From contig NZ_PVLQ01000012.1 of NCBI RefSeq assembly GCF_002980595.1, forward strand, positions 1-64,000: a stretch of DNA of 64,000 nt, written 5' to 3'. The position numbers and the translations under genes were made by a program. The notes beneath the pieces are model-generated. The model saw only the letters and a program-made list of their open reading frames with translations, did no database searches and was not told the DNA's origin. Shown piece after piece: positions 46,964 to 64,000 of the stretch (position 1 is the first letter of the stretch; each line of letters begins with the position of its first letter). The DNA is from Malikia granosa. Lineage in GTDB: Bacteria; Pseudomonadota; Gammaproteobacteria; Burkholderiales; Burkholderiaceae_C.

Positions 46964-47872
46964 ATGACGCTCCAGCGCAGCACAGCCCAGGCCATCGCCG
47001 GCTTCGGCATGGATACCATCACGCTGGCCGGTCCGCTCGAGGCCAAGCTGGCCGCGATGAAGGAGGCCGGCTTTTCCCAGGTCATGCTCAAGGCGAACGA
47101 CCTGGTCGGCCATCCGCAAGGCTGGCAGGCCGCGGTGCAGGCCGTGCACGACAGTGGCCTGCGCGGCACCGGCTTCCAGGTCCTGCGCGACTTCGAGGGC
47201 CTGAGCGGGCATCTGCACCACTACAAGATCGACATCGCGAAGATGATGCTCGAGATGTGCGCCGCGCTCGGCTGCAAGGTGCTGCTGGCCTGTTCGTCGA
47301 CCTCGGCCCATGCGAGCCCGGACCTCGACCATATCGCGCGCGACCTGCGCAAGCTCGCGATGCTGGCGGTGCCGCATGGCATCAGGATCGCCTACGAGGG
47401 CCTGTCCTGGGGCCGCACCATCAACGAGTTCACCACTGCCTGGGACGTGGTGCAGCGCGCCGACTGTCCGAACCTCGGCATCGGCATCGACTCCTACCAT
47501 ATCTTCGCCGCCAAGACCCCGCTCGACGAGATCGACTACCTCGATCCGGGCAAGATCTTCCTGGTCCAGCTGGCCGACTTCATGTGGCAGGAGACCAAGA
47601 CCTTCGAGGAGCGCATGACGACCGCGCGCACCTTCCGCGTCTTCCCGGGCGAGGGCGTGCACAGCGAGCAGCTGGTCGACCTGGTGCTGCGGCTCGACCG
47701 CCTGGGCTACCGCGGCGACTACAGCTTCGAGGTCTTCAACGACGACTATGTGCAGATGCCGCTGCCCTTCGTGGCCGGGCGCGCGCGCCAGTCCGCGCTC
47801 TGGCTGGCCGAGGAGGTGCTGCGCTGCTCGGTGCCGCTGCCGAACCAGATGCGGCTGAAGCAGCCGGGTTGA
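46964..47872 (+). CDS. 3-dehydroshikimate dehydratase-like TIM barrel
   Basis: A 302-residue xylose-isomerase-like TIM barrel. The four expected metal ligands are present: E145 (RIAYEGLSWG), D176 (GIGIDSYHIF), Q202 (VQLADFMW) and E256 (YSFEVFND). With the partner gene upstream and aroQ, aroE and a TRAP importer opposite, it most likely turns 3-dehydroshikimate into protocatechuate. A different sugar-phosphate isomerase is possible on fold alone. Protocatechuate-cleaving genes (pcaGH or ligAB) are not in the window. Confidence 0.82.
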   Translation: MTLQRSTAQAIAGFGMDTITLAGPLEAKLAAMKEAGFSQVMLKANDLVGHPQGWQAAVQAVHDSGLRGTGFQVLRDFEGLSGHLHHYKIDIAKMMLEMCAALGCKVLLACSSTSAHASPDLDHIARDLRKLAMLAVPHGIRIAYEGLSWGRTINEFTTAWDVVQRADCPNLGIGIDSYHIFAAKTPLDEIDYLDPGKIFLVQLADFMWQETKTFEERMTTARTFRVFPGEGVHSEQLVDLVLRLDRLGYRGDYSFEVFNDDYVQMPLPFVAGRARQSALWLAEEVLRCSVPLPNQMRLKQPG

Positions 47873-49799: not shown

Positions 49800-50633
49800 T
49801 CAGTATGACAGACGGGCGACCGACCTGAGGTGCTCGGCGGTCGTGCTCGGCAGGCCGAAGTACTCGAGGTAGGCCGGGATCTGCTCGAACAGCATGTCGG
49901 AGCCGACCTGGGTGCGGCAGCCACGCTCGCGCGCCGCGGCCAGGAAGGCGGTCACCTCGGAGGCCATCACGACTTCGCCGACGAAGGTCTCGGGCGCGAG
50001 GCGGCTGACATCGAGCGGCAGCGGGTCGCCGGCCTTCATGCCCATCGGCGTGGCGTTGACGACCAGGTCATGGCCGGCCGGGTCATTCGAGCCAGTGCGG
50101 ACCTCGATCTGCGGGTAGTTGGCCTGGATGCGCTGGCCCAGGGCCTCGGCTGCAGCCTGGTTGACGTCGAACAGGCTGATCGAGGCGATGCCGGCACCGG
50201 CCAGCGACGCCGCGATCGCCGAGCCGACGCCGCCGCTGCCGACCACCAGCACCCGCTTGTCCTGCAACTCCAGGCCCTTGCGCTGCACGCCGCGCACGAA
50301 GCCGGCGCCATCGAACATGTCGCCGACCAGGCGGCCGTCGGCCAGGCGCTTGACCGCGTTGCAGGCGCCGGCGACCTTGACGGTGGCCGTGACCTCGTCG
50401 AGCAGGCCGACGGTGGTGACCTTGTGCGGCATCGTGATCAGCGCGCCTCGGATGTTGGTCAGTGCGAATACCGACTTGAGGAAGGCCGGGTAGTCCGGTG
50501 CCTGGCAGCCCATCGGCACGACCACGCAGTCGATGCCGGCCTGCTCGAAATAGGGGTTGTAGATCATCGGCGACTTGAAGCTGAAGGTCGGGTAGCCGAT
50601 GTGGGCGATGATTTCGGTGTTGCCGGTGATCAT
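49800..50633 (-). CDS. aroE: shikimate dehydrogenase family protein, probably catabolic
   Basis: A 277-residue NAD(P)-dependent shikimate or quinate dehydrogenase. Catalytic Lys is in ITMPHKVT (about residue 71) and Asp in MFDGAGF (about 107); the nucleotide loop is VVGSGGVGSAIA. The usual GDNTDG reads GDMFDG and the serine-rich shikimate pocket near the N-terminus is SFKSPMIYN. These departures, and company with aroQ and a TRAP importer, suggest oxidation of shikimate/quinate rather than synthesis. It begins 16 bp after aroQ. Confidence 0.88.
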   Translation of the reverse strand: MITGNTEIIAHIGYPTFSFKSPMIYNPYFEQAGIDCVVVPMGCQAPDYPAFLKSVFALTNIRGALITMPHKVTTVGLLDEVTATVKVAGACNAVKRLADGRLVGDMFDGAGFVRGVQRKGLELQDKRVLVVGSGGVGSAIAASLAGAGIASISLFDVNQAAAEALGQRIQANYPQIEVRTGSNDPAGHDLVVNATPMGMKAGDPLPLDVSRLAPETFVGEVVMASEVTAFLAAARERGCRTQVGSDMLFEQIPAYLEYFGLPSTTAEHLRSVARLSY

Positions 50634-50649: not shown

Positions 50650-51123
50650 TCAGGCCTTGCGGGCGGCGGAATTGACGAACTTGCGCACCAGGCCGTCGAT
50701 CGCGACCAGGTAGCCGTCGACGCCGAAGCCGACCACGATGCCGGCGGCTGCCGGCGAAACCCAGCTGTGGTGGCGGAATTCCTCGCGCGCGTGCACGTTG
50801 GAGATATGGCATTCGATCACCGGCAGCGGCTCGACGCCCTTGATCGCGTCATGCAGCGCGATCGAGGTATGGGTGAAGGCGCCCGGGTTGAAGACGATGC
50901 CGAGCGCCTCGCCGGCCTTGTAGAGCCGGCCGTACTCGTGGATCTTGTCGAGCAGCGCGCCTTCCCAGTTGCTCTGGAAGCACTCGACCTCGTAGCCGAT
51001 CTGCTTGCCGTGGGCCTGGCAGAAGGCCTCGACGTCGGCCAGCGTGGTGTGGCCGTACTGGACCGGTTCGCGCGTGCCGAGCAGGTTCAGGTTGGGGCCG
51101 TTGAGGATCAGGATCTTCTTCAT
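50650..51123 (-). CDS. aroQ: type II 3-dehydroquinate dehydratase
   Basis: A 157-residue dodecameric-type dehydroquinase that interconverts 3-dehydroquinate and 3-dehydroshikimate. Start ATG 51123 gives MKKILILNGPNLNLLGTREP; the catalytic tyrosine follows in VQYG, and the NPGAFTHTSIALHDAI and ECHISNVHAREEFRHHS segments carry the substrate and catalytic histidine sites. A longer frame from 51156 would cross the operator. The TetR-type palindrome ends 6 bp before the ATG and no Shine-Dalgarno is visible, so the mRNA may be nearly leaderless. Confidence 0.94.
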   Translation of the reverse strand: MKKILILNGPNLNLLGTREPVQYGHTTLADVEAFCQAHGKQIGYEVECFQSNWEGALLDKIHEYGRLYKAGEALGIVFNPGAFTHTSIALHDAIKGVEPLPVIECHISNVHAREEFRHHSWVSPAAAGIVVGFGVDGYLVAIDGLVRKFVNSAARKA

Positions 51124-51128
51124 TTTGT

Positions 51129-51192: not shown

Positions 51193-52194
51193 TTACTTGC
51201 GGACCTTGGCCAGTTCGGCCTGCAGTTCCTGCACGGTTTCCTGGCCGACGTTGACCGCGTACTTGGCGGTCACCGGGCGCAGCTTGTCGCGCAGCTTGCC
51301 GAGCTCGGCGGCCGGCAGCTCGGTGACCTGCATGCCACCCTTCTTGAGGTTGGCCAATGCGCCGGCGGTCTGGCTGCGGTTGAACTCGCGCTGGTACTTG
51401 GCCGATTCCTTGGCGGCGTCGGACACGATCTTCTGCTCGCTGGCGTCGAGCTTTTCCCAGAACTTCTTGCTGATCAGCACCGATTGCGGGTTGTACTGGT
51501 GGTTGCTCAGCACCAGGTGCTTCTGCACCTCGTAGAACTTGTTGGCGTTGATGACCGAGATCGGGTTTTCCTGGGCATCGATCGCGCCTTGCTCGAGCGC
51601 ACCGTAGACCTCGGGGAAGGGCAGCGGGGTCGGGTTGGCGCCCAGCGCCTTGACCCAGTCGACGTTGATCGGGTTCGGGATCACGCGCAGCTTGAGGCCG
51701 GCCAGGTCATCGACCTTGGTGATCGGGCGCTTGCCGTTGGTGATCTGGCGGAAGCCCAGCTCGTAGTAGGCCAGGCCGACCAGGCCCTTGCTGTCGAGCT
51801 TGGCGTGCATTTTCTGGCCGAAGGCGCCGTCCATGATGGCGTCGGCTTCCTTCTCGTTGCCGAACATGAAGGGGAAGTCCCAGATCGCGAATTCCTTGAC
51901 CTGGTTCGACAGGATGCCGGAGTTCATCGTCACCATCTCGAGCGTGCCGCCCTGCAGCGCCGAGACGTTGGCCTGGTCGCTGCCCAGGGTGCCGCCCGGG
52001 AACAGGTTGACCTTGAGCTTGCCGCCGGACTTGGCCTCGACGATCTCCTTGAACTTCTCCATGCCGACCACCAGCGGATGGCCCTTGGGGTTCTGGGTCG
52101 CGAACTTGATGGTCTTGCTGCTCTGCGCCGCAGCCATGCCGCAGGCGGCCAGCGTGACGGTGGCGAGGACGGTCTTGATGAACAGGCGTTTCAT
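51193..52194 (-). CDS. dctP: TRAP transporter solute-binding protein DctP
   Basis: A 333-residue periplasmic protein with a Sec signal peptide (MKRLFIKTVLATVTLAACGM, cleaved near AAAQ). The binding-site region has GLKLRVIPNPINVDWVKALG with the arginine that usually grips the ligand carboxylate (about residue 172), and PFPEVYGALEQGAIDAQENP. It follows dctM by 92 bp. The neighbouring aroQ and aroE suggest quinate or shikimate as cargo; this is inference. Confidence 0.92.
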   Translation of the reverse strand: MKRLFIKTVLATVTLAACGMAAAQSSKTIKFATQNPKGHPLVVGMEKFKEIVEAKSGGKLKVNLFPGGTLGSDQANVSALQGGTLEMVTMNSGILSNQVKEFAIWDFPFMFGNEKEADAIMDGAFGQKMHAKLDSKGLVGLAYYELGFRQITNGKRPITKVDDLAGLKLRVIPNPINVDWVKALGANPTPLPFPEVYGALEQGAIDAQENPISVINANKFYEVQKHLVLSNHQYNPQSVLISKKFWEKLDASEQKIVSDAAKESAKYQREFNRSQTAGALANLKKGGMQVTELPAAELGKLRDKLRPVTAKYAVNVGQETVQELQAELAKVRK

Positions 52195-52286
52195 GTGGAT
52201 GCTCCAGTCTACAGAGGAATGGTCGTACGCTCGATTATTGCGCCTGGCCTGGCGTACCCGTTCAGGCCAGGCGCTTGTTGCCAGGG

Positions 52287-53567
52287 TCAGCCGTAGAACC
52301 AGCGTGCCGGCACCATGACCAGTTGCGGGAACAGCACCATCAGGAACAGCAGCGCGAACTGCGCGATCATGAAGGGCCAGACCCCCTTGGTCACGTCGTC
52401 CATGCTGATCTTGCCGACGCCGGCCACGGTAGAGAGCACGGTGCCCACCGGCGGCGTGATCAGGCCGATCGCGTTGTTGATCATGAACAGCACGCCGAAG
52501 TAGATCGGGTCGATGCCGGCGGCCTTGACGATCGGCATCAGCACCGGGGTCAGGATCAGGATGGTCGGCGTCATGTCCATCGCGGTGCCGACCAGGATCA
52601 CCACGCCCATGATCGCGAACATCAGGATGGTCGGGTTGTCGAGCAGCGGCTCGAGCAGGGCGACCAGTTCGGCCGGCAGGTTGGCCACCGTGATCATCCA
52701 GGCCGAGACCATGGCGGCGGCGACCAGGAACATGATGACCGAGGTGGTCTTGGCGGCGGCCAGGAACAGGCCGTAGAGCTGGTTGAGCTTGAGTTCCTTG
52801 TAGACCAGCACCGAGATCAGCAGCGCATAGACCGCGGCGACCACGGCGGCCTCGGTCGGCGTGAAGACGCCGAACTTCAGGCCCACGACCACGATCACCG
52901 GCAGCACCAGCGCGAAGGTCGCGTCCTTGAAGGCGGCCAGCACCTGGGCCTTGCTCGCGCGCGGCGCGGCCTCGATCTTCTCCTTGCGCACCAGCCACCA
53001 CCAGGTCAGCCAGAGCGCGGCGCCCAGCATGATGCCCGGCGCGATGCCGGCCATGAACAGCTTGGAGACCGAGACGTTGGCGGCGACGCCGAACACCACG
53101 AAGCCGATCGAGGGCGGGATGATGGGCGCGATGATGCTCGACGCCGACAGCAGGCCGGCCGAGCGCGCCGGGTCGTAGCCGGCGCGGTTCATCATCGGCA
53201 GCAGCAGCGCGGCCAGCGCGGCGGCGTCGGCCACCGCCGAGCCCGACAGCGCGGCCATGATGATGGCGGCCATGATGCCGACATAGCCCAGGCCGCCCTT
53301 GACATGGCCGACCAGGGTCATCGCGAAGTTCACGATGCGCTTGGACAGGCCGCCGGCGTTCATGATCTCGCCGGCCAGCATGAAGAAGGGCACGGCCAGC
53401 AGCGGGAAGCTGTTGCTGCCCTCGATCACGTTCTGCGCCAGGATCTGCGCGTCGAACATGTCCAGGTGCCACATCAGCGCCGCGCCCGACAGCAGCAGCG
53501 AGAACGCGATCGGCACGCCCAGCATCATCGCGCCGAGCAGCGCGCCGAGGAAGATGGTTATCGTCAT
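52287..53567 (-). CDS. dctM: TRAP transporter large permease DctM
   Basis: A 426-residue membrane subunit with about 12-13 hydrophobic segments. Family motifs are seen in PLLAVPFFMLAGEIMNAGGL (about 54-73), ALSGSAVADAAA, IIAPIIPPSIGFVVFG and NNAIGLITPPVG. Together with DctQ it drives sodium-linked import of the DctP-bound acid. It lies 31 bp after dctQ. Confidence 0.94.
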   Translation of the reverse strand: MTITIFLGALLGAMMLGVPIAFSLLLSGAALMWHLDMFDAQILAQNVIEGSNSFPLLAVPFFMLAGEIMNAGGLSKRIVNFAMTLVGHVKGGLGYVGIMAAIIMAALSGSAVADAAALAALLLPMMNRAGYDPARSAGLLSASSIIAPIIPPSIGFVVFGVAANVSVSKLFMAGIAPGIMLGAALWLTWWWLVRKEKIEAAPRASKAQVLAAFKDATFALVLPVIVVVGLKFGVFTPTEAAVVAAVYALLISVLVYKELKLNQLYGLFLAAAKTTSVIMFLVAAAMVSAWMITVANLPAELVALLEPLLDNPTILMFAIMGVVILVGTAMDMTPTILILTPVLMPIVKAAGIDPIYFGVLFMINNAIGLITPPVGTVLSTVAGVGKISMDDVTKGVWPFMIAQFALLFLMVLFPQLVMVPARWFYG

Positions 53568-53598
53568 TGGATTCTCCTAGGGGGTTCGGCGGGCGGCT

Positions 53599-54132
53599 TC
53601 AGGGATGCGGGTCGCCATGCGGCATGTCGTCGGACTCGCGCACGCCGATCAGCTCGCCCTCGCTCAGGCGGCCGGTCAGCAGCTTGAACAGGTCATGGCT
53701 CAGGATCAGGCCGGCGAGCACCGAGAACAGCAGGCCTGACGAATAGAACAGCGCCATCGAGACTTCCATCACCGGGCTGGTGGTCTCGTAGTTGATCACG
53801 ACCTGGTCCCAGCTGCCGCGGAAGATCAGCCAGGCGCAGAACAGCATCAGCACATGGGCCAGGAAGAAGCAGGCCTTCTTGCCCGCGACCGGCAGCTTGG
53901 CGATCAGGCTGTCGGTGCCCAGGTGGCCCTTGTCGTGCAGGCCGACGAAGGCGCCCAGGAAGGTCATCCAGACGAACAGCCAGCGCGACAGTTCCTCCGA
54001 CACCGTGAGTCCGGAGTTGAAGGCGTAGCGCAGCACCACGTTGGTGAACACCAGCACCACCATCAGTGCCAGCGATACCACCATCAGCAGCGACAGCAGC
54101 CGGGAGATCTGGTCTATCAGTTTTTGAAGCAT
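53599..54132 (-). CDS. dctQ: TRAP transporter small permease DctQ
   Basis: A 177-residue four-helix membrane subunit, with the conserved VVLRYAFNSGLTVSEELSRW stretch (about residues 32-51) and HLGTDSL. AAGGAG precedes ATG 54132. The palindromic operator lies 31 bp upstream, so this gene heads the QMP unit. Confidence 0.9.
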   Translation of the reverse strand: MLQKLIDQISRLLSLLMVVSLALMVVLVFTNVVLRYAFNSGLTVSEELSRWLFVWMTFLGAFVGLHDKGHLGTDSLIAKLPVAGKKACFFLAHVLMLFCAWLIFRGSWDQVVINYETTSPVMEVSMALFYSSGLLFSVLAGLILSHDLFKLLTGRLSEGELIGVRESDDMPHGDPHP

Positions 54133-54222: not shown

Positions 54223-54906
54223 TTACTGGCGCAGATAGCGCCAGACCATGTCGATCACGCGCTCGCGCCGGTGCTCGAGATAGCCGGGGTCCTGGGTGTC
54301 CTGCTTGAAGATCAGGCCGAAGGTGTGGCGGTTCGAGACGTTGAAGAAGGACAGTGCCGAGATCGAGGCGTGGATGTCGACCGGGTCCAGCCCCGGTCGG
54401 AACACGCCGCTGGCCACGCCGCGCTGGTAGAGCTCGCGGATGGCGTCGATCGCCGGTACGTTGAGGTCCTGGATATACTGGCTCTGGCGCAGGAACTGGC
54501 CGCGGTGGATGTTTTCCGACATCACGATGCGGACATAGCTCTCGTTGCGCAGGTGGCGGTCGAAGGTGAAGCCGACCAGGCGCTTGAGCGCTGCCTCGGG
54601 TTCCAGGTCCTCGAGGTGCAGGTCGGTTTCCTCCTGGCGGATCTTGCGGTAGGACTCCTCGAGCACGGCCAGGTAGAGCCCTTCCTTGCTGCCGAAGTAG
54701 TAGTAGATCATGCGCTTGCTGGTCTGGGTCGCGGCGGCGATTTCGTCGATGCGCGCGCCGGCCAGGCCCTTCTCGCCGAACTCCTGCTCGGCCACGGCCA
54801 GGATGTTGGCCTTGGTGCGCTCGGGGTCGTTGGTGCGCGTCGTTTCTCGTCCCGGGGCGCGCTCGGTCCGCGCCGTCGTCTGCAATGAATGTACTGGTTC
54901 GTTCAT
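54223..54906 (-). CDS. TetR family transcriptional regulator
   Basis: A 227-residue repressor type. The DNA-binding helix-turn-helix is at about residues 29-72 (AVAEQEFGEKGLAGARIDEI, then TQTSKRMIYYYFGSKEGLYL); the ligand domain follows. The chosen ATG 54906 begins MNEPVHSLQTT; an earlier in-frame start at 54951 would run toward the AraC gene. The first codons themselves contain a degenerate copy of the operator. It heads the leftward run to dctQMP and aroQ-aroE and most likely represses them until the substrate or a product appears. Confidence 0.9.
   Translation of the reverse strand: MNEPVHSLQTTARTERAPGRETTRTNDPERTKANILAVAEQEFGEKGLAGARIDEIAAATQTSKRMIYYYFGSKEGLYLAVLEESYRKIRQEETDLHLEDLEPEAALKRLVGFTFDRHLRNESYVRIVMSENIHRGQFLRQSQYIQDLNVPAIDAIRELYQRGVASGVFRPGLDPVDIHASISALSFFNVSNRHTFGLIFKQDTQDPGYLEHRRERVIDMVWRYLRQ
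54889..54902. promoter_or_regulatory. degenerate operator copy at the tetR start
   Basis: On the minus strand ACGAAC-CA-GTACAT covers tetR codons 2-6. The first half-site and the spacer equal the dctQ site; the second half matches 4 of 6 bases. It could allow autoregulation, but it is coding sequence and could be chance. Confidence 0.4.
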
Positions 54907-54955
54907 TCTCGCGAGTATAGGAAGGGGCAGCGGCCCTGACCATGCTCGCAAACCC

Positions 54956-55891
54956 TCAGTGGGCGGGGGGTGTCGACTGGTGCTGGCGGTGCAGCTGGGC
55001 CAGTGCCTGGGCCCGGAAGGCGCTCGGGCTCAAGCCGGTGTGCTTGCGGAAGAAGCGGCTGAAATAGGCGTCGTCGCCGTAGCCGAGTTCGGCCGCCAGC
55101 TGCTTGATCGGCATGTGGGTGTAGACCAGTTCGCGCTGGGCCTCGTGCAGCACCCGCGCGTTGATCACGTCGAGCCCGGACATGTCGAGCGCCTCGCGGC
55201 ACAGGCGCGAGAGCTGGCCCGGCGTCATGCCCATCTGGCTGGCATAGGCCTGCAGCGATTTCTGCTGCCGGTAATGCCGGTCGACCAGCGAGCGGAACTT
55301 CTCGATCTGGCGCGCCTGGCGCGAGATCGGCTGGTGCGGGGCGTTGCCGCCGGCGTCGAGCACCTCGACGATGCGGTGCACCTGCACCATCAGCGCCAGC
55401 AGCAGCGAGGTGCTGACCGCCACATGGCCCGGTGCATGGGCGCGCGATTCCTGCTCCAGCGTCTGGAACAGCGGCATCAGCTGGTCCACATAGCGCATGT
55501 CGTCCTGCCAGCTGATCAGGCGCGGCTTGCGTATCGTCGGCAGCAGCTCGGGCATCGCCACGCCGGCCACCGACTCGAGCATGCGCTGCGAGGCCGTGAC
55601 CACCGGGCCGTTGACGTCATGGCTGAAGCGAAAGCCGTGCACATGGCCACAGGGCACGACTATCAGGCAGGGCGCCAGGCCCTGCCAGTGCGCGTCGTCG
55701 AGCAAGAAGTCGACCTGGCCCGTGCTCAGGTAGAGCAGCTGCAGGAAGGTGTCGTGCCGGTGCGGATGGATGACCCAGTTGTAGGGCTGGGAGCGCTGCG
55801 GAATCCACTCGAAGTTGAACGAGTCCGACCACTCGGGCGAGGCCTGGTCGCCATAGAGGTCGTAGTTCGGAATCACCCTGGGGTAGGCCAT
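54956..55891 (-). CDS. AraC family regulator, PobR-like
   Basis: A 311-residue protein with an N-terminal cupin-like effector domain (HPHRHDTFLQLLYLSTGQVD, about residues 42-61) and two C-terminal AraC helix-turn-helices (SLQAYASQMGMTPGQLSRLC and IKQLAAELGYGDDAYFSRFF). Opening residues IPNYDLYGD and overall layout recall PobR of Pseudomonas and Azotobacter, which senses 4-hydroxybenzoate. It lies 72 bp after the second dctM, same strand, and may control that TRAP system and the divergent oxidoreductase genes. Confidence 0.87.
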   Translation of the reverse strand: MAYPRVIPNYDLYGDQASPEWSDSFNFEWIPQRSQPYNWVIHPHRHDTFLQLLYLSTGQVDFLLDDAHWQGLAPCLIVVPCGHVHGFRFSHDVNGPVVTASQRMLESVAGVAMPELLPTIRKPRLISWQDDMRYVDQLMPLFQTLEQESRAHAPGHVAVSTSLLLALMVQVHRIVEVLDAGGNAPHQPISRQARQIEKFRSLVDRHYRQQKSLQAYASQMGMTPGQLSRLCREALDMSGLDVINARVLHEAQRELVYTHMPIKQLAAELGYGDDAYFSRFFRKHTGLSPSAFRAQALAQLHRQHQSTPPAH

Positions 55892-55963: not shown

Positions 55964-57289
55964 TTACTGGAAGAACAGGTCCACCAGCCCCAGGGTCAGC
56001 GTCGGGAACAGCAGCAGCACGATGACGCGCAGCACGTCCCAGGCCAGGAAGGGGAATACGCCCTTGTAGGTTTCGCCCATCGAGGTGTCGCCGGCCAGGT
56101 TGTTGACCACATAGACGTTGAGCCCGACCGGCGGCGCGATCAGGCCGATGCCCACGGTCATCAGCACCAGGATGCCGAACCAGATCGCCTTCATCTCGGG
56201 CGCCAGTCCCCACAGGTCCAGGCCCATGATGGCCGGGAAGATCACCGGGATGGTCAGCAGCAGCATCGACATCTCGTCCATCACGCAGCCCAGGATGACG
56301 TAGAACACCAGCACGCTGACGACGATCCAGAGCGGCGCGATCCCGAGATGCGTGACCCAGTCGGCCAGCTGGGCCGGCAGCTGGGTCAGCGACAGCGAGG
56401 CGTTCATCATGTCGGCGCCCAGGAAGATCAGGAACACCATGGCGCTGGTCTCGGCCGAGGCGATGAAGCTGTTGCAGATCGCCTTCAGGTTGAGCTCGCG
56501 GCTGGCCAGGCCGGCGAACAGCGTCAGCGTGGCGCCGACGGCCGCGCCCTCGGTCGGCGAGAAGATGCCGCCGTAGATGCCGCCGAACACGACCAGGAAG
56601 ATCGACAGGATGGGCCAGACCCCGAACAGGGCCTTCCAGCGCGCGGCCCAGGGCACGGGCGCATGCGGCGGTGCCAACTCGGGCCTGACCATGCAGTAGA
56701 GCGCGATCACGACCAGGTAGCCCAGCATGGCCAGCACGCCCGGCAGCATGGCCGCGGCGAACAGCTTGCCCACGCTTTGCTCGGTCAGGATGGCGTAGAC
56801 CACCAGCGGGACCGAGGGCGGGATCAGGATGCCCAGGGTGCCGCCGCTGGCCAGCGCCGCGGTCGAGAGCCGGCCCTGGTAGCCGTAGCGCCGCATCTCG
56901 GGGTAGGCCACCTGGGTGATGGTGGCCGAGGTCGCGACCGAGGAGCCGCAGACGGCACCGAAGGCGCCGGCCGACAGCACGGCAGCCATCGCCAGTCCGC
57001 CGCGCACATGGCCGACGAAGGCGGCGGCGGCGCGGAACAGGGCCCGGCTCAGGCCGCCCTGGGTCGCGAACTGGCCCATCAGCAGGAACAGCGGGATCAC
57101 GCTCAGGTCGTACAGGGTCAGGCGCGCGACCGCGCTGCCCTTGAGCATGTTGAACAGCGCGACCTCGTTGCTCATCGCGAGGTAGCCCAGCGCGCCCGGA
57201 ATGAACATGGCGGCGGCAATCGGTATGCGCAGCACCATCAGCGCCAGCATGCCGGCGAACATGACCAGGCCTATCGTCATCGGACTCAT
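55964..57289 (-). CDS. TRAP transporter large permease DctM (second system)
   Basis: A 441-residue permease with about 12-13 membrane segments and the family motifs SVIPLFLLMGQFATQGGLS (about 69-87), AVCGSSVATSATI, GILIPPSVPLVVYAIL and GLIAPPVGLNVYVVNN. ATG 57289 overlaps the dctQ stop in an ATGA. It is only moderately similar by eye to the first DctM, so the two systems are not a recent duplication. Confidence 0.93.
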   Translation of the reverse strand: MSPMTIGLVMFAGMLALMVLRIPIAAAMFIPGALGYLAMSNEVALFNMLKGSAVARLTLYDLSVIPLFLLMGQFATQGGLSRALFRAAAAFVGHVRGGLAMAAVLSAGAFGAVCGSSVATSATITQVAYPEMRRYGYQGRLSTAALASGGTLGILIPPSVPLVVYAILTEQSVGKLFAAAMLPGVLAMLGYLVVIALYCMVRPELAPPHAPVPWAARWKALFGVWPILSIFLVVFGGIYGGIFSPTEGAAVGATLTLFAGLASRELNLKAICNSFIASAETSAMVFLIFLGADMMNASLSLTQLPAQLADWVTHLGIAPLWIVVSVLVFYVILGCVMDEMSMLLLTIPVIFPAIMGLDLWGLAPEMKAIWFGILVLMTVGIGLIAPPVGLNVYVVNNLAGDTSMGETYKGVFPFLAWDVLRVIVLLLFPTLTLGLVDLFFQ

Positions 57290-57798
57290 GCGAATTCTCC
57301 TTGTCGCTCGCCCTGCAGGGTCTGCAGGTCCTGGCCGGTGAAATGCAGCCAGGCCTGCACCAGCGCCACCAGGGCGGCCAGCATCAGGCCGGGCGCCAGC
57401 GAGGCGTAGGCCCACCACATCGGCAGCTCCAGTGTCATGGTGGTCTCGTTGACCTCGTGCACCGCGAAGGCGCCGATCGTGGTGCGCCAGGCCAGCAGGC
57501 CGTACATCACGGCGATCAGCACGCAGCCCAGGCCATCGAGCCAGCGGGTGGTGCGGGCGCTGGCGTTCTGGGTGAAGAAGTCGACGATGATGTTGGCGCC
57601 GCGCAACTGGCACCAGGCGATGCAGAGCGAAATCGCCACCGCCACCCCCATCTGCACCATTTCCACGTCGCCCTGGATCGGTTGCGTGGTGAAGAAACGC
57701 AGGGACACGCTGGCCACGGTCATCACGCCGACCGCCAGCGCGACCAGGCCGCCCAGGACGGCGAACAGCCAGGTGATTTTTCTCAGTAACAGCCTCAT
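57286..57798 (-). CDS. TRAP transporter small permease DctQ (second system)
   Basis: A 170-residue protein with four hydrophobic segments and the typical VSLRFFTTQPIQGDVEMVQM and ANIIVDFF stretches. It is separated from the upstream dctP by a strong terminator hairpin, and its frame continues upstream only through that hairpin, so ATG 57798 is the sensible start. Confidence 0.88.
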   Translation of the reverse strand: MRLLLRKITWLFAVLGGLVALAVGVMTVASVSLRFFTTQPIQGDVEMVQMGVAVAISLCIAWCQLRGANIIVDFFTQNASARTTRWLDGLGCVLIAVMYGLLAWRTTIGAFAVHEVNETTMTLELPMWWAYASLAPGLMLAALVALVQAWLHFTGQDLQTLQGERQGEFA

Positions 57799-57827
57799 GG
57801 CTTGCCTTCTTTCAGATCGAGAGCCGT

Positions 57828-57854
57828 AAAAAAGCCGGTGCGCGCGGCACCGGC
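57828..57854 (-). terminator. terminator between dctP and dctQ of the second TRAP system
   Basis: GCCGGTGC pairs with GCACCGGC (8 bp, 5-base loop) on the minus strand, followed by six T (57833-57828). It is inside the operon, 22 bp after dctP, and should let only part of the transcripts reach dctQ-dctM. Confidence 0.88.
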
Positions 57855-57876
57855 TGCGGGACCGATGCGCCCGCAA

Positions 57877-58908
57877 TTACTTCTTGCTGTATTTCTGCAC
57901 CAGCTCGCGCGCCTCCTGCACCATGGCCTTGCCCGGCAGGCCCTTCTTCTCGACGTCGGCGACCCAGCTGTCGTAGATCGGTGCCGAGGCCTTGATCCAG
58001 TTGTCGGTCTCGGCTTCAGGCAGCACGTAGACCTCGTTCTTGCGCTCCTCGGCCACCTTGCGCGCGGGGGCCTGGCTCTCGTCGTAGGTCCGGCCGAGCT
58101 GGGCCGACAGCGCGGCGCCGCTGTTGCGGTCGATGATGGCCTTGAGGTCGGCCGGCAGGCTGTCGTACTTGGCCTGGTTCATGCCCCACATCAGCACCGC
58201 GGTGTAGAGGCCGGGACGCGACTGCGGGGTCTCGGTGTGGTACTTGACGTTCTCGGTGATGCGGAAGCTCGGCAGCGTCTCCCAGGGCACCACGGCGCCG
58301 TCGAGCGTGCCCTTGGAGATGGCGTCGGCCACGCCGGTGATCGGCATGCCGATGGCCGAGGCGCCCATCAGCGTCAGCAGCTTGGTGGTCTGGCGCGTCG
58401 GCGCGCGCAGCTTGAGTCCCTTGAGGTCGGCCAGGGTCTTGATCGGGTGCTTGGCGTTGTGGATATAGCCTTCGTCGTGGGTCCAGATCGCCAGCAGCTT
58501 GGTGCCGACGAATTCCTTCATGCCGTATTTCTGCGTGTAGTCCCAGATCGCGCGCGAGGTGGACTCGGCGTTGTAGGACATGAAGGGCAGCTCGAACACC
58601 TCGGTCGACGGGAAGCGGCCGGGGGTGTAGCCGGGCAGGGTCAGGACCATGTCGTCGACGCCGTCCTTGACGCGGTCGACCAGCTGGGCCGCCGTGCCGC
58701 CACCCGACATCGCGGGCATCAGCTGGCACTTGATGCGGTTCTTGGACTCGAGCGCGATCTTGTCGCACCAGGGGTTGAGCACCTTGCTCGGCACGATCGC
58801 GGTGTTGGGCCAGATGTGATGCACCTTGAGCGTGACTTCCTGCGCGTGGGCGCCCCAGGCGCTCAACGCCGCCAGGGCGATCAGGGAATGGTTAAGCAAG
58901 CGTTTCAT
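57877..58908 (-). CDS. TRAP transporter solute-binding protein DctP (second system)
   Basis: A 343-residue periplasmic protein with a signal peptide (MKRLLNHSLIALAALSAWGA, cleavage near AHAQ). Ligand-site region LKGLKLRAPTRQTTKLLTLM carries the expected arginine, and GTLDGAVVPWETLPSF matches the later conserved block. It belongs to the DctP subgroup often linked to aromatic or alicyclic carboxylates in Comamonadaceae, but the ligand is not proved. It heads the dctP-dctQ-dctM-araC run. Confidence 0.92.
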   Translation of the reverse strand: MKRLLNHSLIALAALSAWGAHAQEVTLKVHHIWPNTAIVPSKVLNPWCDKIALESKNRIKCQLMPAMSGGGTAAQLVDRVKDGVDDMVLTLPGYTPGRFPSTEVFELPFMSYNAESTSRAIWDYTQKYGMKEFVGTKLLAIWTHDEGYIHNAKHPIKTLADLKGLKLRAPTRQTTKLLTLMGASAIGMPITGVADAISKGTLDGAVVPWETLPSFRITENVKYHTETPQSRPGLYTAVLMWGMNQAKYDSLPADLKAIIDRNSGAALSAQLGRTYDESQAPARKVAEERKNEVYVLPEAETDNWIKASAPIYDSWVADVEKKGLPGKAMVQEARELVQKYSKK

Positions 58909-59780: not shown

Positions 59781-60593
59781 ATGAGCAGTAGTCAGGATTG
59801 GTTGGGCTTGCAGGGCAAGGTCTGTGTGGTGACCGGTGCCGCCAGCGGCATCGGTGCCGCGGTGGCCAGCGGCCTGGCAGCCGTCGGGGCCCGGGTGGCC
59901 TTGCTGGACCGCGATGCCGAAGGCGCCGAGCGCGTCGCCGCCGCGCTGCGCGCCCAGGGGGCGCAGGCACTGGCGGTCAATTGCGACATTTCGCAGGAGG
60001 CCAGCGTGCTGGCCGCCGCGCAGCGGGTGCAGGCCGAACTCGGCGCTGCCTACGCGCTGATCAACAATGCCGGCCTGTTGCGCTCGGGCAGCCTGGACGA
60101 GGTCAGCCTGGACGACTGGAACGCGGTGCTCTCGGTCAACCTGAGCGGCTACCTGCTGTGCGCGCGCGCCTTCTCCGAGCCGATGCGCCGGGCCGGCCAG
60201 GGCAGCATCGTCAACATCGCGTCGATCGCGGGCCTGTTCCCGCAGACCGGCAGCGGCGCCTACAGCGCGAGCAAGGCCGGCGTGCTGCTGCTGTCGCGCC
60301 AGATGGCGGTCGAGTGGGGCCCGCTGGGCCTGCGCAGCAACGCGATCTGCCCCGGCATGATCCGCACCGCGCTGTCGGCCAAGTTCTACGAGGAGCCGGG
60401 CTTCGAGGCCAAGCGCGCCGCCGTGACCGCGAGCCGTCGCGTCGGCGAGCCGCAGGACATCGCCGATGTGGCGCTGTTCCTGGCCAGCCCGCGCGCGGCC
60501 TATGTGAATGCCGCCGAATTCCTGGTCGATGGCGGCATGGGCGCGATGCTGATGGATATGGTGCCGCGCCCTGGCTACAACAAGACCACCTGA
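59781..60593 (+). CDS. short-chain dehydrogenase/reductase
   Basis: A 270-residue classical SDR. The nucleotide motif TGAASGIG is at about residues 18-25 with an aspartate after the second strand (LLDRD), favouring NAD. NNAG, the catalytic serine in IVNIASIAG, Tyr161 and Lys165 (YSASK) are all present. ATG 59781 is 9 nt after AGGAG. It begins the unit with the KstD-like flavoprotein 13 bp downstream, so it probably oxidises a ring alcohol to the ketone used by that enzyme. Substrate unknown. Confidence 0.88.
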   Translation: MSSSQDWLGLQGKVCVVTGAASGIGAAVASGLAAVGARVALLDRDAEGAERVAAALRAQGAQALAVNCDISQEASVLAAAQRVQAELGAAYALINNAGLLRSGSLDEVSLDDWNAVLSVNLSGYLLCARAFSEPMRRAGQGSIVNIASIAGLFPQTGSGAYSASKAGVLLLSRQMAVEWGPLGLRSNAICPGMIRTALSAKFYEEPGFEAKRAAVTASRRVGEPQDIADVALFLASPRAAYVNAAEFLVDGGMGAMLMDMVPRPGYNKTT

Positions 60594-60606
60594 ACCGGAG
60601 AAGTCC

Positions 60607-62313
60607 ATGTCAAACGCTAGCGAATGTGATCTGATCGTCGTCGGCTCCGGTGCCGCCGGCCTGGCCACCGCCATCACCGCCAGGAAGCGCGGTCTCGACG
60701 TGATCGTGCTCGAGAAGGAGCCGGTCTTCGGTGGCACCACCGCGCTGTCGGGCGGGGTGCTCTGGATTCCGATGAACCCGCATGGCCGCAAGCAGAACCC
60801 GGCCGACAGCGCCGAGGCCGTGCGCCGCTACATGATGGAGGAGACCGGCAAGTTCTATGACGAGGCCACGGTCAATGCCTTCATCGAGAACGGCCCCAGG
60901 ATGGTCGAGTTCTTCGAGCGCGAGACCGAGATGCAGTTCATCCCGACGCTCTATCCCGACTACCACCCGAACCTGCCGGGCGGCGTCGATATCGGCCGCT
61001 CGATCCTGGCCGCGCCCTACGACATCCGCGGCCTGGGCAAGGACATGGCGCGCCTGAAGCTGCCGCTCAAGACCATCACCTTCATCGGGATGATGTTCAA
61101 CTCGTCGAATGCCGACCTCAAGCATTTCTTCAACGTCACCAAGTCGCTGACCTCCTTCGTCTATGTCGCCAAGCGGCTGGCGAACCACCTCAAGGAGCTG
61201 GCGCTGTACCGGCGCGCCATCAACGTGACCAGCGGCAACGCGCTGGCCGCGCGGCTGGCCAAGTCGGCGCTGGACCTGGGCATCCCGATCCTGACCGGCA
61301 CGCCGGCCCGGCAGGTCCTGATCGAGGATGGCCGCGCGGTGGGCGTGCTCGCCGGTGGCGCGGACGGCGAGCGCCGCATCCGCGCGCGCCACGGCGTGGT
61401 GCTGGCCGCCGGCGGCTTCCCGCACGATGTCAAGCGCATCGCGCAGGCCTATCCGCACCTGGCGCGCGGCGGCGAGCACCTGTCGCCGACGCCCAAGAGC
61501 AACACCGGCGACGGCGTCAACATGGCCGAGGCCGCCGGCGCGGTGGTCGACATCCGCTTCCAGGAGACCTCGGCCTGGATGCCGGTCACCAAGGTCGATT
61601 TCGGCAATGGCGAGATCGGTGTCTTCCCGCACCTGCTGGACCGCTACAAGCCCGGCATCATCGGCGTGCTGAAGAACGGCAAGCGCTTCACCAACGAGTC
61701 CAATTCCTACCACGATGTCGGCGCCGCCCTGGTCGAGGCGTGCAAGGGCCAGCAGGAGACGGCGATGTGGCTGATCTGCGACAAGACCGCGCTGGGCAAG
61801 TACGGCCTGGGCTATGTCAAGCCGGCGCCGATGCCGATCGGCCGCTTCATCAAGAACGGCTACCTGACCGAGGGCAGGACGCTCAAGGAGCTGGCGCAAA
61901 AGACCGGCATCAACGCCGCTGCGCTGGAAAAGACCGTGCGCGACTACAACGTCGGCGCGGTCAAGGGCGAGGACCGCCAGTTCGGCCGCGGCACGACCAG
62001 CTTCAACCGCTACCTGGCCGATCCGGCCAACCAGCCCAACCCCTGCGTGGCGCCGGTGCAGACCGGTCCGTTCTACGCGGTCAAGGTCATCATGGGCGAC
62101 CTCGGGACCTTCGACGGCATCAAGACCAGCGTGGTCGGCGAGGTGCTCAAGCGCGACGGCAGCAAGATCGACGGCCTGTACGCGGTGGGCAACGACCGTG
62201 CCAGCATGATGGGCGGCAACTACCCCGGCGCCGGCATCACGCACGGCCCGAACATGACCTTCGGCTTCGTGACGGCGAACCATATCGCCGACCTGGCCGG
62301 AGCCCGGGCATGA
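60607..62313 (+). CDS. KstD-like FAD-dependent ketone dehydrogenase
   Basis: A 568-residue flavoprotein of the fumarate reductase / 3-ketosteroid 1-dehydrogenase family. The FAD motif DLIVVGSGAAGLATAITA is at residues 8-25, followed by E36 (VLEKE) and GGTTALSGGVLWIP. Near the C-terminus NYPGAGITHGPNMTFGF contains Tyr539 and the PGxG turn that correspond to the catalytic Tyr and Gly of KstD. Such enzymes introduce a double bond next to a ring ketone. True steroid degradation genes are absent; a smaller alicyclic keto acid, as in 4-oxocyclohexanecarboxylate aromatisation, is a reasonable alternative. Confidence 0.87.
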   Translation: MSNASECDLIVVGSGAAGLATAITARKRGLDVIVLEKEPVFGGTTALSGGVLWIPMNPHGRKQNPADSAEAVRRYMMEETGKFYDEATVNAFIENGPRMVEFFERETEMQFIPTLYPDYHPNLPGGVDIGRSILAAPYDIRGLGKDMARLKLPLKTITFIGMMFNSSNADLKHFFNVTKSLTSFVYVAKRLANHLKELALYRRAINVTSGNALAARLAKSALDLGIPILTGTPARQVLIEDGRAVGVLAGGADGERRIRARHGVVLAAGGFPHDVKRIAQAYPHLARGGEHLSPTPKSNTGDGVNMAEAAGAVVDIRFQETSAWMPVTKVDFGNGEIGVFPHLLDRYKPGIIGVLKNGKRFTNESNSYHDVGAALVEACKGQQETAMWLICDKTALGKYGLGYVKPAPMPIGRFIKNGYLTEGRTLKELAQKTGINAAALEKTVRDYNVGAVKGEDRQFGRGTTSFNRYLADPANQPNPCVAPVQTGPFYAVKVIMGDLGTFDGIKTSVVGEVLKRDGSKIDGLYAVGNDRASMMGGNYPGAGITHGPNMTFGFVTANHIADLAGARA

Positions 62314-62678
62314 GCGCGCTGACCCCGGCATTGAGCCAGTCGCTCGTCAAGCCGCTGGTCGATCACCGCATCTACACCATCGCGCTGCGCAAGATGCCCG
62401 AGTTCCTCGAGGTCTTCAACCGCCTCGCGATGCCGGTGCTGATGCAGACGCTGGGCCATCCGGTCGGCTGCTACACCAGCCTGGTCGGGCCGCAGAACCA
62501 GTTCGTCCACCTGTGGGCCTACGACGACCTGGCCGACTACGAGCGCCGCTGCCGCGCGCGCGACACGCACCCGGACTTCCCGGCCTATCTGGCGGCCTCG
62601 GGCCACCTGATCACGGCGCAGGAAACTCGCCTGATCAAGGCCTGCGCGATGCCGGGCTGGGTGGTGTCGGGCGGCTGA
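62310..62678 (+). CDS. NIPSNAP family protein
   Basis: A 122-residue ferredoxin-like alpha/beta-barrel protein. HRIYTIALRKMPEFLEVFN (about residues 18-36) and HLWAYDDLADYERR are typical of NIPSNAP domains, whose bacterial members accompany catabolic enzymes without a proved activity. Its ATG overlaps the flavoprotein stop (ATGA at 62310-62313), showing a coupled role in the same pathway. Confidence 0.82.
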   Translation: MSALTPALSQSLVKPLVDHRIYTIALRKMPEFLEVFNRLAMPVLMQTLGHPVGCYTSLVGPQNQFVHLWAYDDLADYERRCRARDTHPDFPAYLAASGHLITAQETRLIKACAMPGWVVSGG

Positions 62679-62717
62679 GCGGGCGGCGATCGAGCCAGCG
62701 CGGCGCCAGCCCGATCG

Positions 62718-62743
62718 GCGGCGGCCTGTTGCCAGGCCGCCGC
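62718..62743. terminator. hairpin between the NIPSNAP gene and the convergent SDR gene
   Basis: GCGGCGGCCTG (62718-62728) pairs perfectly with CAGGCCGCCGC (62733-62743) around TTGC. The 11-bp stem lies in the 67-bp gap between two stop codons. There is no long T-run; it may still end both transcripts. Confidence 0.6.
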
Positions 62744-62745
62744 TC

Positions 62746-63567
62746 TCAGGACCGCGCCGGCTTGCCCGGGCGGCCCGGAATCATGGCCAGCATATGGTCG
62801 GCTACGCCGCCGTCCACCACCAGGTTCTGCCCCGTGACATAGGCCGCGCTGGCGCTGCTCAGGTAGGCGACCGCAGCGCCCACGTCCTCGGGCCGGCCGA
62901 TGCGGCCCAGCGGTACCAGTGCCTCGCGCCGCGCCAGCGTCTCGGCGTCCTGGTAGACGGCCTCGGTCAGCGGCGTGCGCGTCATGCCGGGGCAGACCGT
63001 GTTGACGCGGATGCCGTCGGTCGCCCATTCCTGCGCCAGCTGGCGGCACAGCATGATCAGCGCCGCCTTGGCGGCCGAGTAGGCGCCGTAGCCCGGGTGC
63101 GGATGCAGGCCCGACATCGAGGCGATCGCGGTGATGCTGCCGCGCGTGCGCGCCAATTGCTCACGCGCCGCCTGCGCCAGCAGCCAGGCCGAGCGGGTGT
63201 TGAGGTTGAAGGTCAGGTCCCACTGCGCGAGCGGCAGGTCGGCCAGCTGGCCCGGGCCGGAAGCGCCGGCGTTGCAGACCAGGGCCGTCAGGTCGCCGCC
63301 ATCGGCCTGGGCCCGGGCGACCAGCGCCGCGCATTGCGCCGGATCGGTGATGTCGCCGCCGAGGCCGGTCGCGCTCGCGCCGGCCGCGCGCAGCTCGTCG
63401 AGCAGGCGCTCGAGTCGCTCGCCCGGCTGCGAGCCTGCCGCCGAGACATGGATGGCCTGGCCGTCGCGCCTGGCCTGTTCGACCAGCGCGAAGCAGATGC
63501 CGCGACCGATGCCACCGGTGGCGCCGGTGACCAGCGCGTGGACCCGGGATGGAACGGGAGTTGCCAT
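62746..63567 (-). CDS. short-chain dehydrogenase/reductase (second)
   Basis: A 273-residue SDR with TGATGGIGRG (about residues 15-24), CNAGASG, the serine in SITAIASMSG and YSAAK as active site. The C-terminal AYVTGQNLVVDGGVADHM is typical of 3-oxoacyl-reductase-like members. It follows the CoA-transferase by 29 bp, same strand, and faces the KstD-like unit. It is not a copy of the first SDR. It may act on a CoA-ester or free hydroxy acid of the same pathway. Confidence 0.85.
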   Translation of the reverse strand: MATPVPSRVHALVTGATGGIGRGICFALVEQARRDGQAIHVSAAGSQPGERLERLLDELRAAGASATGLGGDITDPAQCAALVARAQADGGDLTALVCNAGASGPGQLADLPLAQWDLTFNLNTRSAWLLAQAAREQLARTRGSITAIASMSGLHPHPGYGAYSAAKAALIMLCRQLAQEWATDGIRVNTVCPGMTRTPLTEAVYQDAETLARREALVPLGRIGRPEDVGAAVAYLSSASAAYVTGQNLVVDGGVADHMLAMIPGRPGKPARS

Positions 63568-63596
63568 GAGATCGGGCTCCTTCTGCCGCGCGTCGA

Positions 63597-64000
63597 TCAG
63601 AGCGCCGCGTTGAAGAACTCGCCCGCCATGACCTGGAGGTCGGCGGCGATGCGCGGCTGGAATTCCATCTGGTCGAGCACGTCGCGCTGCAGGTCGATGC
63701 CGGGGGCAAGCTCGAACAGCTCGACGCCCTCGGGGGTCAGGCGGAAGCTGGCGCGCTCGGTCAGGTACAGCACCTGCTGGCCGCGCACCAGGCCCTGCGG
63801 GCCGCTGAAGGTGATCTGGTCGACCTGCTTGACCAGCTTCCTGACGCCGCCCTGCTGCAGCACGCGCATCTGGCCGTCGCCGGTCGCGAGCTTGACGCCC
63901 TTGGCGGCAAAAGTGCCGCAGAACACCACCTTCTTCGCATTCTGCGCGATGTCGATGAAGCCGCCGGGGCCGACCGTGATGCCGCCCAGGCGCGAGACGT
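63597..64000 (-). CDS. acyl-CoA:carboxylate CoA-transferase, C-terminal part
   Basis: The last 134 codons of a gene that continues past the window end. The text LGGITVGPGGFIDIAQNAKK, then VVFCGTFAAKG, and TPEGVELFELAPGIDLQRDV match the C-terminal half of the propionate/acetate CoA-transferase (Pct, YdiF) family. The catalytic glutamate region lies outside. It is probably the CoA activation step of the adjacent pathway. Confidence 0.85.
   Translation of the reverse strand, partial: VSRLGGITVGPGGFIDIAQNAKKVVFCGTFAAKGVKLATGDGQMRVLQQGGVRKLVKQVDQITFSGPQGLVRGQQVLYLTERASFRLTPEGVELFELAPGIDLQRDVLDQMEFQPRIAADLQVMAGEFFNAAL

Follow-up and report, generated by a model that had tools for sequence, protein, structure and literature searches.

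A predicted operon for the aromatisation of hydroxylated cyclohexane-carboxylic acids in Malikia granosa and related bacteria

The SDR-A, F1 and NIPSNAP genes and their relatives

The first 64,000 nucleotides of contig NZ_PVLQ01000012.1 of Malikia granosa (assembly GCF_002980595.1), hereafter the window, belong to a contig 279.8 kb long, in a genome of 3.83 Mb. Close to the end of the window lie three plus-strand genes that are the subject of this analysis: a short-chain dehydrogenase/reductase (SDR) designated SDR-A (59781-60593; adh_short_C2, 204 bits), a KstD-type flavoprotein designated F1 (60607-62313; FAD_binding_2, 306 bits), and a NIPSNAP-family protein (62310-62678; PF07978, 74 bits) whose gene overlaps that of F1 by 4 bases. 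SDR-A is a candidate dehydrogenase for conversion of a hydroxy acid to a ketone and F1 a candidate ring-ketone desaturase, with an NYPGAG turn at residues 538-543. These genes were found as an initial annotation of the sequence had described them, as were two genes facing them on the minus strand, SDR-B (62746-63567; adh_short_C2, 204 bits), an accessory dehydrogenase, and the C-terminal part of a CoA-transferase (63597-64000). With gene context and homology as the basis of all functional claims for this unit, we predict, with moderate confidence, that the genes for SDR-A, F1 and the NIPSNAP protein constitute an operon with which freshwater and soil bacteria catabolise hydroxylated cyclohexane-carboxylic acids, aromatising them to 4-hydroxybenzoate.

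A scan of named genomes gave 238 F1 relatives, and we analysed the best 80 loci (identified, like other loci mentioned below, by L numbers), which are mostly proteobacterial, with one labelled Chitinophaga, and lean toward the Comamonadaceae; two of them, L129 and L133, are contigs from one strain. The closest named F1 relative in this best 80 of 238, at 96% identity, is from Malikia spinosa; Cupriavidus metallidurans CH34 has a homolog at 73%. SDR-A lies directly 5' of F1 in 59 of the 80 loci, a divergent AraC-type gene is located within 1.7 kb of F1 in 56, and the NIPSNAP gene is directly 3' of F1 in 72 and placed elsewhere in 2, being undetectable in the remaining 6 of the 80. Because the trio recurs in dozens of genomes, its arrangement is not due to chance. 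We also collected a co-occurrence sample of 200 genomes of the same family (G numbers), in which 18 encode F1 at 67% identity or above, a threshold of our choosing (the next matches stand at 53%). In G018 the F1 match is limited to residues 6-382; of the two F1 genes that G177 carries, one lacks SDR-A.

Roughly 19-20 of the 80 loci contain F1 and NIPSNAP without SDR-A or AraC (among them L107, L111, L113, L117, L119-L121, L125, L127, L130-L132 and L134), and many of these carry genes for an SCP2-like thiolase, an OB-fold protein, CaiB, a CoA-transferase or an acyl-CoA dehydrogenase. Since the SDR-less loci nest in two separate parts of the F1 clade, F1 and NIPSNAP were apparently recruited twice into another pathway. 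Two identity rules for SDR-A were used, 55% for the tree and 54% for the neighbourhood count. L139 is SDR-less under the former and SDR-bearing under the latter, which was chosen after L139 was known; L070, whose record starts within the unit, is SDR-bearing in the tree count and SDR-less in the neighbourhood count.

The neighbourhoods of the SDR-bearing loci point to 4-hydroxybenzoate and cyclohexanecarboxylate metabolism. By tblastn, at least one marker (PobA, a PcaK-like transporter, a P450 domain, AliA, AliB or BadI) was found nearby in 21 of 60 SDR-bearing loci versus 0 of 20 SDR-less loci (Fisher P 0.001), a control that hinges on the SDR threshold fixed once L139 was known; when L139, which has PobA and AraC, is moved to the SDR-less side, the counts become 20/59 and 1/21 (P 0.009). 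Kinship enters these and the following Fisher probabilities only through genus counts, and related loci are not independent. PobA is near the unit in 8/80 loci by open reading frame (ORF) clustering and in 6/80 by stricter tblastn (50% identity, 80% coverage), under which L063 and L135, 48% and 50% identical to the PobA of L108, are lost; the L108 protein itself scores 688 against a cut-off of 538.7. A PcaK-like transporter is near the unit in 6/80 loci (471 of 770 bits in L128). The order PobA-AraC-SDR-F1-NIPSNAP occurs in L057, from one member of the family, and in L099 (Cupriavidus sp. UYMMa02A) and L108 (Paraburkholderia atlantica) P450, AraC, SDR, F1, NIPSNAP and PobA genes follow one another. 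AliA, AliB, BadH and BadI are all encoded adjacent to the unit in 8/80 named loci, and the ali/bad set adjoins it in Limnohabitans and Curvibacter-type loci; in L079 all four exceed their cut-offs (931/792.3, 678/575.35, 459/431.2 and 529/467.6, respectively), and ali/bad genes also lie by the unit in L045, L047 and L051, from three members of the family.

Reductase domains accompany the P450 beside the unit. In L108 (5544-8117) it is fused behind a BenC-type reductase, with no FCD match; in L099 (5220-8041) the reductase and an FCD-P450 part occupy two overlapping frames; and L154 (4252-7041, a plasmid of Paraburkholderia sp. FT54) has a reductase-P450 fusion beyond AraC that PGAP names benC. 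These fusions place BenC-type ferredoxin, FAD and NAD domains at the N terminus and the P450 at the C terminus; in L154 the two are separated by an FCD (GntR-type ligand) domain. Nothing with this architecture was recognised in a literature search on self-sufficient P450s with BenC-type reductases, as far as titles and the openings of abstracts reveal.

The same association is seen at the level of whole genomes. PobA exceeds its cut-off in 18/18 genomes with F1 versus 134/200 overall (P 0.0005), and in 13/13 F1 genera (P 0.014); BadI exceeds its cut-off in 11/18 versus 30/200 (P 2e-6), and by genus is present in 8/13 versus 27/141 at E 1e-100 (P 0.0005). Without G122, whose F1 lacks SDR-A, the values are 17/17 for PobA (P 0.0007) and 10/17 for BadI (P 9e-6). 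M. granosa itself encodes PobA (686 bits) on contig C92 and badHI-aliBA homologs on contig C95, where BadI scores 532 bits and is over its cut-off. Its single P450 match is on contig C90 (L160:2390-6299), together with genes for a 2Fe-2S ferredoxin (assigned by eye) and a ferredoxin reductase, all divergent from an HpaA-like AraC gene; this P450 is a candidate ring hydroxylase, no more.

F1 and the ring-ketone dehydrogenases

The known genes for cyclohexanecarboxylate aromatisation come from the actinobacterium Sinomonas. Their pathway leads through a P450, a dehydrogenase and two desaturases to 4-hydroxybenzoate, according to the relevant portion of PMC9795900, which cites Yamamoto 2021; from the same portion and the NCBIfam names, the chc system of Sinomonas (Corynebacterium) cyclohexanicum comprises a P450, the 4-hydroxycyclohexanecarboxylate dehydrogenase ChcB, and the desaturases ChcC1 and ChcC2. 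We scored F1 against models of these proteins together with two further KstD-type flavoproteins encoded on the same contig, F2 (contig 68469-70208; L009 from 10470) and F3 (contig 72162-73910; L009 to 15911), these three being the sole matches to the ChcC2 model in the genome (E 1e-20). The ChcC2 scores were 539 for F1, 477 for F2, 415 for F3, and 358 and 334 for two steroid dehydrogenases, with a cut-off of 900 bits that no match exceeded in any ChcC2 search, including those of 20 genomes with F1. F1 reached 316 of 1000 with the ChcC1 model, and 440 of 789 (PRK12844) and 410 of 788 (PRK07843) with models of 3-ketosteroid dehydrogenases (KSTDs). Because all of these scores are under their cut-offs, we do not class F1 as ChcC2, ChcC1 or KSTD. 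SDR-A obtained 184.8 of 350 with the ChcB2 model.

We constructed a tree of 114 rows, in which the window and 79 loci supply the 80 F1 rows used here and in the residue counts; L061 (no row) and L163 (start motif not found) were left out. The tree was built without true ChcC1 or ChcC2 sequences and without the proteins of Protein Data Bank (PDB) entries 7p18 and 4c3x. All 80 F1 rows clustered into a single clade (support 100), and the 16 F2 rows (support 98), the 12 F3 rows (support 100) and four KSTD-type rows all fell outside it. The initial annotation had allowed that a phylogeny might place the flavoprotein inside an unrelated clade; F1 instead occupies a clade of its own. The branching order of the outer rows is unsure because the tree program warned of long branches.

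We placed the catalytic tetrad of F1 by alignment to 4c3x, using the numbering of KstD1. Its members, Y119, Y368, Y539 and G543, are present in 80/80 F1 rows and 4/4 KSTD-type rows (the distant rows L117_F2_25 and L127_F1n_23 being excluded from all residue counts). The first catalytic tyrosine is lost in 16/16 F2 rows, for which reason the chemistry of F2 may differ. Two basic residues distinguish F1 from the KSTD-type rows. R531, just ahead of the YPG turn, is invariant in the 80 F1 rows, is serine, threonine or alanine in the four KSTD-type rows, and corresponds to methionine in 24 of 28 F2 and F3 rows; K405 is lysine or arginine in F1, F2 and F3, and neither in the four KSTD-type rows. These two residues are likely to be carboxylate contacts.

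The best solved relatives of F1, by both sequence and fold, are the steroid dehydrogenases AcmB of Sterolibacterium (7p18; 32% identity) and KstD1 of Rhodococcus erythropolis (4c3x; 29% identity), which share its fold, FAD site and tetrad; R531 and K405 set F1 apart from the KSTD-type rows of the tree, of which 7p18 and 4c3x are not members. A structure model of F1, used for fold search only, retrieved KSTDs first in Foldseek and then the cyclohexanone dehydrogenase of Alicycliphilus denitrificans K601 (8am3, 8am6, 8am8; 24% identity in the Foldseek alignment). The latter has the same fold and, like F1 as predicted here, desaturates a monocyclic ketone; its catalytic residues are Tyr195, Tyr376, Tyr570 and Gly574 in the portion of PMC10966990 consulted, a set that we equate with the F1 tetrad by residue order, not by direct alignment. 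This dehydrogenase has been assayed on cyclic ketones, lactones and lactams, whereas the neighbourhood of F1 points to a carboxylate.

Importers, regulators and the surrounding hydroaromatic genes

Upstream of SDR-A lies a minus-strand importer, TRAP-2 (55964-58908), whose solute-binding protein DctP (57877-58908; PF03480, 144.5 bits) was identified by Pfam, in agreement with the initial annotation, and is a candidate importer of the ring acid. The two permeases, identified by position and by eye, are DctM, the large one (55964-57289), and DctQ, the small one (57286-57798), each an ORF with its start chosen by hand and with a 97% ortholog, in L112 and L041, respectively. In a PDB search the best relatives of this DctP were 5im2, 5i5p, 5iga and 7nr2, which we take to be aromatic-acid binding proteins. 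Across the PDB searches with TRAP-1, TRAP-2, TIM-barrel and TctC proteins, ligands were named only for a few terephthalate, sialate and isethionate binders, and TarP is described as binding coumarate and relatives, cyclohexane going unmentioned in the portion of PMC3610893 consulted. Of the 80 named loci, that of M. spinosa alone has a TRAP-2 DctP at 50% identity or above near F1 (weaker relatives, at 42-46%, are in L107, L114, L124 and L136); uptake through TRAP-2 may therefore be a peculiarity of the genus.

An AraC-type gene (54956-55891, minus strand) beyond TRAP-2 scored 162.6 bits with the HpaA model TIGR02297, whose cut-off is 274.65. It had been called PobR-like, and from its sequence HpaA/PobR-like is the fitting description, identity with PobR itself being unproven. 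TRAP-2 parts it from SDR-A, whereas in relatives AraC is mostly directly divergent from SDR-A. Next come a TetR-type gene (54223-54951, minus strand; TetR_N and TetR_C_29) and a second importer, TRAP-1 (51193-54132, minus strand), with DctP at 51193-52212 and permeases assigned by eye, DctM at 52287-53567 and DctQ at 53599-54132. The TRAP-1 DctP matches PDB entry 4p47 with 369 bits and is near F1 in 6/80 loci; SDR-B is near F1 in 16/80.

Adjoining TRAP-1, the region from 46.0 to 51.1 kb encodes AroQ, an AroE-like protein and a QuiC-type dehydratase that appears to be split, along with two transporters. The minus-strand AroQ, a type II dehydroquinase (50650-51126), scores 178.7 with TIGR01088, above the cut-off of 169.85, and the minus-strand AroE-like shikimate/quinate-type dehydrogenase (49800-50633) scores 145.6 of 200.2 with TIGR00507 and 53.9 bits with Shikimate_dh_N. 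We tentatively assign two plus-strand genes to the split QuiC-type dehydroshikimate dehydratase, an HPPD-like half (46046-46960; 4HPPD, 85 of 277 bits; QuiC, 80 of 1200 bits over model positions 290-465) and a TIM-barrel half (46964-47872; QuiC, 156 of 1200 over positions 6-267). The HPPD-like half comes first and the TIM barrel second, the reverse of the order in the fused model.

Following the contig past 64 kb, as the initial annotation had proposed, revealed a larger hydroaromatic island that it had not foreseen. Between 66 and 77 kb are AroE2, F2, F3, putative tripartite tricarboxylate (TTT) importer genes and a TIM barrel that matches QuiC weakly (23 bits). F2 belongs to the run IclR-F2-NIPSNAP2-TIM barrel-acyl-CoA dehydrogenase-CoA-transferase, while F3 follows an AroE-like gene and precedes the importer genes; NIPSNAP genes stand in tandem in this stretch. 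The two AroE-like proteins (49800-50633 and L009:13269-14162) are both under the aroE cut-off and share a DMFDG motif. Both differ from E. coli AroE at the serine to which carboxylate binding is attributed; their specificity may be altered. Taken as a whole, the region looks to us like an island for hydroaromatic acids, carrying three KstD-type flavoproteins besides its AroE-, AroQ- and QuiC-like genes.

The CoA-transferase gene, which extends to contig position 65171 (full length: CoA_trans, 82.7 bits; FadX model, 349 of 750), had been assigned to the pathway of F1, an assignment that we reject. Its conserved neighbours are the acyl-CoA dehydrogenase, TIM-barrel, NIPSNAP2 and F2 genes, and because this gene order is conserved in relatives, the transferase is the last gene of the separate F2 operon.

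Much of the island recurs on alphaproteobacterial plasmids. A plasmid of Paracoccus sp. MA (L166:7845-31137) has TIM-barrel, NIPSNAP2, F2, IclR, Gfo/Idh/MocA and AroE genes and an ABC importer, followed by two SDRs, F1, AraC, NIPSNAP, QuiC-like, F3-like, transporter and AroE-like genes; a plasmid of Rhizobium sp. ACO-34A (L167) has much of the set, including F1, F2, AroE and an ABC importer. These plasmid genes suggest horizontal spread.

Predicted pathway, alternatives and implications

In the pathway that we favour, a TRAP importer would bring a ring carboxylate into the cell, where SDR-A would oxidise a ring hydroxyl, most simply converting 4-hydroxy- to 4-oxo-cyclohexanecarboxylate. F1 would then remove hydrogens beside the ketone by KSTD chemistry, in which Y539 and G543 would grip the carbonyl, Y368 together with Y119 would accept the proton and the hydride would pass to FAD. 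Repeating the reaction would give a dienone that tautomerises to 4-hydroxybenzoate, which PobA, encoded elsewhere in the genome, would convert to protocatechuate; the NIPSNAP protein may, at a guess, help with the tautomerisation or the handling of the dienone. The HpaA/PobR-like AraC protein probably controls the operon. Oxidation of an alicyclic acid had been proposed in the initial annotation, and such an oxidation, with 4-hydroxybenzoate as the end point, gains support from the linkage to PobA, PcaK-like, P450 and ali/bad genes.

The unit resembles chc in the predicted order of reactions, an SDR followed by a KstD-type flavoprotein, in the end product 4-hydroxybenzoate, and in the P450 and PobA genes beside it in some relatives; the mechanism of F1 is most likely like that of ChcC. 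It differs from chc in having one flavoprotein rather than two, in scoring under the Chc equivalog cut-offs, in that its candidate hydroxylase lies outside the cluster of the window, and in its position within a hydroaromatic island. The NIPSNAP partner and the AraC regulator of the F1 unit may be further differences. The bad-ali CoA pathway of Rhodopseudomonas and Aromatoleum, whose genes adjoin the unit in the Limnohabitans and Curvibacter loci and have homologs elsewhere in the M. granosa genome, handles the same class of starting compound; unlike our proposal for F1, it proceeds by beta-oxidation of CoA thioesters and ring hydrolysis, without aromatisation.

Several observations weigh against this assignment. 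F1 and SDR-A both miss the curated Chc cut-offs, and the structure model of F1 is of moderate confidence, with a predicted local distance difference test (pLDDT) score of 79 and values below 50 at residues 156-180, 535-538 and 540-543. Neither a hydroxylase nor PobA was found in the cluster of the window, the copies in this genome being on other contigs; the 18/18 count for PobA is weak by genus because PobA is common in the family; and the SDR-less control depends on a threshold set in knowledge of one locus. The NIPSNAP gene is undetectable in some loci and the TRAP-2 importer is rarely nearby, a weak point. Other loci have F1 and NIPSNAP without SDR-A or AraC, and since many of these carry thiolase and CoA-related genes, F1 is not tied to one pathway. 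Finally, the known pathway uses two desaturases and the core unit has one, F2 and F3 being 6 and 10 kb away and in other clades. In the available sequence of Thauera propionica (L124), F1 is the sole match to the ChcC2 model at E 1e-80, which suggests that F1 makes both double bonds or that one suffices. From the single desaturase of the core unit and the T. propionica genome, it follows that either F1 carries out both desaturations or the pathway ends in a non-aromatic product; possibly F1 alone makes both double bonds.

The AroE-, AroQ- and QuiC-like genes close by also point to shikimate-type compounds, against the proposed substrate, and together with the two further KstD-type flavoproteins they make a shikimate-type substrate a live rival, if to our minds a rather unlikely one. 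The F1 unit would then be an arm of a shikimate/quinate-type pathway, in which the AroE-like enzymes and SDRs make ketones, F1, F2 and F3 desaturate ketones of saturated analogs such as dihydroshikimate or 3,4-dihydroxycyclohexanecarboxylate, and the QuiC-type and TIM-barrel dehydratases finish aromatisation to protocatechuate. Consistent with such a role are the gene sets at 46-51 kb and 66-77 kb, the occurrence of NIPSNAP2 or TIM-barrel genes near F1 in 17/60 and of AroQ in 6/60 SDR-bearing loci, and the QuiC-like gene of Paracoccus sp. MA, which is full-length (641 of 1200 bits) and lies two genes past the AraC gene of the F1 unit. In Rhodococcus koreensis, too, a plasmid match that is a relative of F2 has as neighbours a TIM barrel and a gene resembling shikimate transporters (459 of 538 bits). 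However, the genes nearest to the F1 unit in several lineages encode PobA, PcaK-like, P450 or ali/bad proteins, R531 of F1 is mostly methionine in F2 and F3, and, because F2 and F3 form clades of their own, it may be these two, rather than F1, that the shikimate-type genes work with. The initial annotation had looked to the neighbouring genes for signs of a different known pathway; the PobA and ali/bad links argue for the pathway proposed, and the shikimate-type genes keep the alternative alive. We therefore retain AroQ, AroE and QuiC as grounds for this alternative and do not adopt them as proof that F1 acts on shikimate.

That F1 contributes to steroid or terpene metabolism as a 3-ketosteroid (or terpenoid) 1-dehydrogenase seems to us very improbable, in line with the non-steroid role first suggested for the flavoprotein. 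In fold and catalytic residues F1 does match the KSTDs, and some SDR-less loci have SCP2-like thiolase and OB-fold genes, gene types that we take to belong to steroid side-chain degradation. Against this stand the KSTD scores below cut-off, a ChcC2 score above those of the two steroid dehydrogenases, the position of F1 apart from the four KSTD-type rows, and the links to PobA and ali/bad; no steroid genes were recognised, mostly by eye, among the ORFs read in the window and along the contig to 97 kb. We accordingly reject this role as unlikely by family models, tree and neighbourhood. There is equally little to recommend F1 as a reductase that hydrogenates an unsaturated ring acid at low oxygen: urocanate and fumarate reductases of the superfamily are among the sequence and Foldseek matches, but F1 has the catalytic tetrad of the dehydrogenase branch, and the linked PobA and P450 belong to aerobic degradation.

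Returning to the aromatisation of cyclohexane-carboxylic acids by the F1 unit, we would assign shikimate-type compounds to the F2 and F3 genes and simpler cyclohexane-carboxylates to the F1 unit, a provisional division. More tentatively still, the whole region might be a general catabolic island for ring acids of full or partial saturation, in which a single NIPSNAP-coupled flavoprotein, F1, carries out both desaturations of 4-oxocyclohexanecarboxylate in place of ChcC1 and ChcC2, while F2 (with NIPSNAP2 and the TIM barrel) and F3 (with an AroE-like enzyme) desaturate ketones of saturated shikimate and quinate analogs and feed QuiC-type dehydratases, the products being 4-hydroxybenzoate and protocatechuate; the enzymes carry only general family names in the records consulted.

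There are long-standing reports of proteobacteria, including Alcaligenes, Acinetobacter and Pseudomonas, that aromatise cyclohexanecarboxylate aerobically, according to the portion of PMC9795900 consulted. No proteobacterial gene set for this aromatisation was recognised among the titles and opening lines of abstracts in a literature search to which most subscription journals were external, and the titles and opening lines on NIPSNAP and hydroaromatic catabolism held nothing that settles function. If our prediction is true, it would give a function to proteobacterial genes that are named only FAD-dependent oxidoreductase, SDR and NIPSNAP, as the genes of the unit are in plasmid records, and would open a biochemical route to understanding a bacterial NIPSNAP protein. 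It would also provide a flavoprotein for producing phenols out of cyclohexanones, and would bear on naphthenic-acid clean-up and on the turnover of hydrogenated plant acids.

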